Below, in pieces: positions 62,130 through 62,498 of a stretch of DNA of 64,000 bases. Under the pieces are notes generated by a model, which was given only the letters and a program-made list of their open reading frames with translations, was not told the DNA's origin and did no database searches. How positions within the stretch are numbered: position 1 is the stretch's first letter; every line of letters begins with the position of its first letter. Made by a program: the position numbers and the translations under genes. Source of the stretch: a virus; the IMG/VR virus record IMGVR_UViG_3300042892_002029, positions 1 through 64,000 of that record; one strand, written 5' to 3'.

Positions 62130-62498
62130 GGGGATGGCCAGGCTTTGACTATTTATGGTCTTGTCTAGTAAGCATGTAGTGTTAGATGGAAACACTTTAA
62201 TCACCTATTATTTTTGTAAATGGCAATTCATTTGACATAGACGAAAACTTCCTAGCAAACGCTTCGATAGAAGTAGTTTCAGGAGAGGTTGCATTAGCCT
62301 AGATAATGCGATGGTGGTAGTCCACTAAAAGCTCTAACTTATTGGAGTTAAAATTTAATAGGCAGAAGATTAGTTTTTAGTAAACCGAACTGTAATAAGG
62401 GAACTGAAAGGTTTTGGGTAATTCGTAAATTACAACCTAAACATGTAGAAAGCTATTTGAGAATAAGTAACACATGGGTTCGACTCCCATCATCTCCA
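62130..62498 (+). ncRNA. ssrA: tmRNA (transfer-messenger RNA)
   Basis: GGGGATG (62130-62136) pairs fully with CATCTCC (62491-62497) as the acceptor stem, including the usual third-position G-U. A T arm ATGGG-TTCGACT-CCCAT ends at 62490, and the CCA is not encoded. Conserved AAGCATGTAG (near 62170) and ACATGTAGAAAGC (near 62441-62453) are present. A reading frame from GGC 62222 to TAG 62300-62302 could encode a 26-residue tag, G-N-S-F-D-I-D-E-N-F-L-A-N-A-S-I-E-V-V-S- then GEVALA. The same frame could start later at GCA (62255). The tag ends in ALA. It would free stalled ribosomes and mark products for degradation. Confidence 0.93.

Follow-up and report, generated by a model that had tools for sequence, protein, structure and literature searches.

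Elsewhere, the modal length of tmRNA tags is 10 residues (PMC11915505), and the reading frame of E. coli tmRNA is set by A86, located four bases upstream of the resume codon (PMC2481249). Phages also carry tmRNA genes: they were found in 402 of 18,146 phage genomes (PMC9004378). The presence of tmRNA together with SmpB in huge phages was reported in one sentence of a paper (PMC7162821) that, by text search, does not mention Clp. Although phage tmRNAs have long been catalogued, we found no study on the content of their tags in the searchable literature; likewise, no description was found there of a clpP-tmRNA gene pair, or of a conserved long tag with a hairpin inside it.

The tmRNA gene analyzed here is carried by the IMG/VR virus record IMGVR_UViG_3300042892_002029. 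The window, i.e. the whole stretch of DNA that was analyzed, covers bases 1 to 64,000 of this 66,399-base record, which is probably a fragment. An earlier examination of the letters alone (the sequence-only reading) had drawn attention to the gene and to its unusually long possible tag.

Phage and host of the window

The window contains a T4-like myophage gene set, including ribonucleotide reductase, DnaB-like helicase and baseplate wedge protein. The best named matches of the reductase are from Tenacibaculum and Cellulophaga phages, and those of the baseplate protein are from an uncultured phage and Flavobacterium phages, all with less than 60% identity. Owing to these matches and to the Bacteroidota-type promoter described below, the host of the phage is probably a member of Bacteroidota. 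A host ssrA gene at a prophage border was ruled out, since the contig is viral with T4-like genes and the gene is located at the same place in many phages.

Reading of TAG as a sense codon was also ruled out for the window. Its full-length genes end with TAA (51), TGA (3) or TAG (2), in line with the standard code, and TAA takes the tag stop position in the nearest relative. tRNAs with the anticodon CUA, called as tRNA-Pyl, are common in the relatives (L023, L025, L030, L040, L051 and others), which suggests amber suppression or recoding in those phages.

A cluster of protein-quality genes is located at 58567-63112; besides the clpP and tmRNA genes discussed below, it contains one DnaJ-like gene (58567-59583), one putative phage metallopeptidase (59645-60070) and one FKBP-type isomerase (62690-63112). 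The isomerase was rejected as a member of the tmRNA module, as a close relative was found on only five viral contigs. The DUF2828/DUF7788 protein encoded at 55566-57020 resembles TROVE/vWA (Ro60-like) proteins.

Identity and fold of the tmRNA

The one-piece tmRNA gene extends from its 5′ end at 62130 to the discriminator A at 62498; like all its elements given below, it is on the plus strand. The sequence-only reading had called it complete and proposed ARAGORN and the Rfam model as checks, and both found it. ARAGORN called 62130-62499, whereas the RF00023 match covers 62130-62501 with 72.4 bits (cut-off 47, E 3.4e-26) and model positions 1-374 complete. The encoded 3′ end reads ...CUCC-A-CUA; the terminal CCA is therefore not encoded. 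In the tmRNAs of four relatives (L020, L021, L030 and L035), the discriminator is G or T instead of A (CUCC-G, CUCC-U).

We aligned 60 distinct tmRNAs from phage contigs and used 36 of them for structure analysis. The acceptor stem is formed by GGGGAUG (62130-62136) and CAUCUCC (62491-62497), as assigned from the sequence and the RF00023 alignment. It includes the alanine identity pair G3·U70, a wobble between G 62132 and U 62495 that is G-U in all 36 relatives. The T arm (AUGGG-UUCGACU-CCCAU, 62474-62490) has five pairs, four of which show changes on both sides, and 98% of its cells are paired. Two-sided changes also accompany the acceptor stem, helix 2 and the first helix of PK1, all of which are kept; both the acceptor stem and the T arm had been pointed out in the sequence-only reading. 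As in known tmRNAs, the tRNA-like domain is closed by helix 2 and carries the T arm. Among the pseudoknots PK1-PK4, the first helix of PK1 covaries, and its second helix pairs convincingly in some but not all relatives. By inspection, the hairpin GCAUUA/UAAUGC (62291-62309), with the stop codon in its loop, takes the place of bacterial helix 5. Since these stems covary and G3·U70 is found in 36/36 relatives, the gene encodes a genuine, conserved tmRNA, and the RNA is a tmRNA by every feature tested, pseudoknots apart.

The DNA motif at the 3′ end, used as a tmRNA probe, found mostly tRNA-Ala genes or nothing; the named phage records searched with the window tmRNA gave no DNA match, and no tmRNA match was found in Tenacibaculum phage pT24 or Flavobacterium phage immuto.

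Expression signals were found around the gene, all on the plus strand. A Bacteroidota-type promoter, TTG-N20-TATATTTG, is located at 62070-62100; its motif TAnnTTTG occurs within 90 bases upstream of 33 of 39 tmRNAs, compared to 4.0 expected from shuffles. It is followed by one boxA-like leader element, GTTCTTTAA (62116-62124), whose motif GTTCTT lies within 40 bases upstream of 32 of 38 phage tmRNAs (0.4 expected); the element also precedes some host ssrA genes. Terminator-like hairpins are present before (62031-62054) and after (62588-62613) the tmRNA transcription unit. In the unrelated phage Wildcat, the tmRNA is the most highly expressed lytic gene (PMC7474061).

The tag reading frame

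The alignment of 60 tmRNAs places the resume codon at GGC 62222, and the frame runs through 26 codons (62222-62299, plus strand) to the stop codon TAG (62300-62302). An A at position -4 of this codon (62218, plus strand), the equivalent of E. coli A86, forms a conserved column, with A in 55/55 relatives that have long tags. Most of the variation in codons 1-7 is synonymous; in the SENFL group (34 members), Val6 is invariant with three codons and Ser7 is invariant with four. The -4 column and the synonymous variation of codons 1-7 together give a tag of 26 residues, GNSFDIDENFLANASIEVVSGEVALA.

A resume codon further in, at GAA 62243 (19 residues) or GCA 62255 (15 residues), would shorten the tag. 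GAA is the choice of ARAGORN, which omits codons 1-7, and it also has an A at -4 in the window. However, only 30/55 relatives have A in that column, the omitted codons show the synonymous variation just described, and in L009 and L013, two relatives with short tags, the resume codon falls in the column of GGC 62222; an inner start is thus extremely unlikely. The sequence-only reading had named both GGC 62222 and GCA 62255 as starts; by alignment, dN/dS and the A at -4, the former is supported and the latter is not. ARAGORN can therefore misplace the resume codon in phage tmRNAs.

The 60 distinct relatives mostly have tags of 25-27 residues that belong to one family. Among the 59 that are readable, the lengths are 25 (37 tags), 26 (17), 27 (1), 21 (1), 19 (1) and 9 residues (2). 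As claimed before, the window tag ends in ALA directly before TAG; tags of the relatives end in -AVA, -ALA, -AFA or -AVV. The canonical ssrA degron is about 10 residues long and ends in LAA or a close variant, and the window tag departs from it in both length and end. A short host-like tag, GNAEYAMAA, is encoded in two related phages (L009:16733-17072 and L013:16732-17071), which thus contrast naturally with the long-tag members. One 380-kb virus record (G009) has two tmRNAs; the second (L103:1501-1897, G009:C1:327939-328335) encodes a 21-residue tag, GNILENATVGHFVAEDAAVVA, that is unlike the first.

The tag frame is under purifying selection across the clade. In the window frame, dN/dS is 0.34, compared to 1.2-2.1 in the shifted frames; for the two subgroups, the values are 0.34 and 0.28 in frame and 1.0-2.1 in the shifted frames. 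Part of these bases is also constrained by the stem-loop inside the tag, which does not account for the codon-wise pattern of the outer codons. Both ends of the tag are conserved as peptide, G/DN..F..ENFL at the beginning and GE[VL]A-hydrophobic-A at the end. The long tag noticed in the sequence-only reading is thus conserved and selected; long phage tags as such are not unique, as the tag of mycobacteriophage ErnieJ has 25 residues.

The tag may serve ribosome rescue without being mainly a degradation signal; for example, it could shield products from host proteases or direct them to another fate. Such a role would agree with its length and C-terminal residues, which differ from those of every host tag compared, and with the peptide-level conservation of the extra N-terminal residues. 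We nevertheless regard it as unlikely, because the small hydrophobic run at the tag end and the neighbouring Clp protease gene fit degradation better.

A stem-loop inside the tag frame

One stem-loop (62249-62285, plus strand) lies between ENFL and GE in the frame. Its outer stem TTTCC/GGAGA is formed by 62249-62253 and 62281-62285, and it encloses an inner hairpin at about 62262-62273. For the SENFL group, represented by 30 distinct rows, 87.4% of the cells pair, and five pairs show two-sided changes, a number reached in 2 of 500 shuffles. The covariation score is higher than in all 500 shuffles, and every slid register is worse. Folded singly, the elements of 41 sequences are more stable than their synonymous recodings, with mean z values of -1.7 and -2.1. 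In the subgroup of the window, the register of the inner hairpin varies from member to member; the support there therefore comes from folding energy and not from strict covariation. In the variable middle of the tag, it is largely the RNA stem-loop that is conserved, and at both ends the peptide.

Alternatively, insertion of a stem-loop into the mRNA-like domain could have made the tag long, with an ordinary degradation signal and a peptide length that is a by-product. This explanation agrees with the covariation and the stability of the element, and with the location of the variable residues in the tag middle. However, residues 1-11, which precede the stem and reach its foot, also show conservation at the peptide level, with numerous synonymous changes in their codons, and the 25-residue tag of an unrelated mycobacteriophage may likewise count against it. 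We give the by-product explanation little chance, slightly less than a tag with a fate other than degradation.

Linkage between clpP and the tmRNA gene

The sequence-only reading had suggested that the tag may be linked to a phage ClpP encoded nearby. Such a gene is present at 60324-61028 (plus strand, PF00574, E 1.3e-57), 1.1 kb upstream of the tmRNA. Its product is below the ClpP equivalog cut-off (NF011091, 229.9 bits versus 361) and far below that for head maturation proteases (66.5 versus 120); judged from these profiles, it is a ClpP-family peptidase (PF00574) and not a housekeeping orthologue.

IMG/VR contains at least 598 relatives of the window ClpP; the best 80 of these were retained. 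A tmRNA above the Rfam cut-off was found in 65 of 76 distinct ClpP-bearing records, many of which are fragments (44/50 plus a further 21/26). The earlier statement that tmRNA genes are rare in phages thus holds in general, with 402 of 18,146 genomes, but not in this clade. Among 44 loci located via clpP, 42 have the tmRNA on the same strand and no more than 2 kb downstream, in some cases within 54-134 bases.

To avoid the bias of selecting by clpP, we also scanned IMG/VR with tag-codon patterns alone, blind to clpP. The scan returned 43 contigs, some of them near-duplicates and all within the fairly close relatives that the patterns can reach. In all 36 contigs with enough upstream sequence, clpP lies upstream on the same strand, and the distance from its end to the tag pattern is 228-1884 bases; the supposed link to the phage ClpP is thereby borne out as a conserved gene arrangement. 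The distances between ClpP proteins and between tmRNAs correlate as well (r 0.77; 0 of 2000 permutations as high). As a terminator-like hairpin (62031-62054) separates the two genes in the window, the pair is not one transcript there. The linkage is lost in more distant phages: clpP and tmRNA are 6 kb apart in L009 and L013, and in LR756504 they are far apart.

SmpB and unfoldase genes in the relatives

SmpB (PF01668) is encoded in 8 of 50 records. Two of the phage proteins, with 179.5 and 168.3 bits, are above the TIGR00086 equivalog cut-off of 119.1; the two SmpB genes examined adjoin sigma-factor-like and phosphatase-like genes, named by sequence inspection. A ClpA/B/C-type double-AAA ATPase is present in 7 of 8 records larger than 200 kb and has an [MV]G[FL] tripeptide at the loop site of ClpP-docking ATPases; NCBIfam gives no decision on its subfamily within ClpA/B/C. 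In the unfoldase of the 362-kb record G055, an apparent intein is located at the second Walker A motif (L174, G055:C1:236000-240500). In four larger records (G029, G046, G051 and G055), tmRNA, SmpB, ClpP and unfoldase are all encoded; of these, tmRNA and ClpP are present in the window fragment, and no SmpB or unfoldase gene was found in it.

These partner genes bear on another explanation, namely that the RNA is a decoy or a decaying copy that ties up SmpB or ribosomes without tagging. The tmRNA of phage DS6A, which has little beyond the tRNA-like domain, resembles a tmRNA-inhibiting molecule (PMC4131195), which speaks for this explanation. However, the RNA of the window keeps a complete mRNA-like domain, its tag frame is under purifying selection across the clade, and some relatives have their own SmpB. 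A decoy is therefore very improbable.

Proposed function

Computation shows the RNA fold, the tag frame and its selection, the clpP linkage, the co-divergence, and the SmpB and unfoldase genes of the relatives; alanine charging, tagging, degradation and the identity of the acting protease are inferred. Probably, the window encodes a working trans-translation RNA, which would mark the chains of stalled ribosomes for degradation by Clp, plausibly the phage's own ClpP. The tmRNA would be charged with alanine via G3·U70 and, together with SmpB from the host (or from the phage in some relatives), would enter ribosomes stalled on broken mRNAs. Translation would restart at GGC 62222 and add the 26-residue tag, and the ribosome would be released at TAG. 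The tagged chain would most likely undergo Clp proteolysis, and because clpP and tmRNA form a conserved gene pair, its likely end point would be the ClpP of the phage, with an Hsp100 unfoldase from either host or phage driving it. As the tag ends (-ALA, -AVA, -AFA and -AVV) are unlike the host [LMY]AA, recognition by a Clp unfoldase is not assured.

A stronger form of this proposal is a private phage line of trans-translation and proteolysis, in which the phage tmRNA, helped in some phages by their own SmpB, would give chains from stalled ribosomes a long tag that differs from the host tag, and this tag would be recognised by the linked phage ClpP and a phage ClpA/B/C-type unfoldase. We consider it possible but rather doubtful. 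If true, the phage would keep ribosomes in use and decide which truncated products are destroyed. About 50 natural variants of a long tag, on which purifying selection acts and which contains an RNA hairpin, are available in this clade; with its fixed clpP neighbour, and with SmpB and unfoldase in some relatives, the clade makes it possible to test clearly whether ribosome rescue is diverted by phages to a protein-degradation route of the phage.

Comparison with known tmRNAs

Like bacterial one-piece tmRNA (ssrA, RF00023), the window tmRNA has an acceptor stem with G3·U70, a T arm, helix 2 and a PK1 stem, as well as a resume codon with A at -4 and a stop codon in a helix-5-like loop. The Bacteroidota host tags compared here are 9-10 residues long and end in [LMY]AA (GENNYAMAA, GENNYALAA, ANDYSYAMAA), as read after a few plainly wrong ARAGORN calls were recognised. 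Different from host ssrA, and as the sequence-only reading had it, the window tag ends in ALA and, with 26 residues, is almost three times longer; its tmRNA also has an in-frame stem-loop and a clpP neighbour.

Some jumbo and huge phages share part of these features. Bacillus phage G has its tmRNA among tRNA genes, with a 13-residue tag (AKLNITNNELQVA). LR756504 and the Lak phages have large genomes with tmRNA, SmpB and a ClpP homologue; different from the window, the tmRNA there is not beside clpP. The tag of LR756504, read from its sequence, has 24 residues (DNVNSFEQSILNELFAPVEMAVAA), and a 24-residue tag is also found in L212, a contig binned with a Bacteroidetes genome; the tag of Lak-A1 is short (DDEIDFRMAA). 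The tmRNA of LR756508 (L291:1501-1947) has a long open frame ending in ...KPAAV and may encode a long tag. LR756508 and LR756511 also have tmRNA-like RNAs of 112 (L293:1501-1612) and 137 bases (L294:1501-1637), respectively, which apparently consist of the tRNA-like domain only and accompany a full tmRNA; phage DS6A may be compared.

A long tag, of 25 residues (ATDTDATVTDAEIEAFFAEEAAALV), is also encoded by the tmRNA of mycobacteriophage ErnieJ (KT365400, species Bxz1). Different from the window, this tmRNA is located among clustered tRNA genes and has no clpP beside it, the two tags have no sequence likeness, and phage and host are of other lineages. Phage tmRNA, phage SmpB and long phage tags are already known, ErnieJ being a precedent for the last; what the present clade adds is the strict pairing with clpP, the hairpin inside the tag and the partner genes in the relatives.
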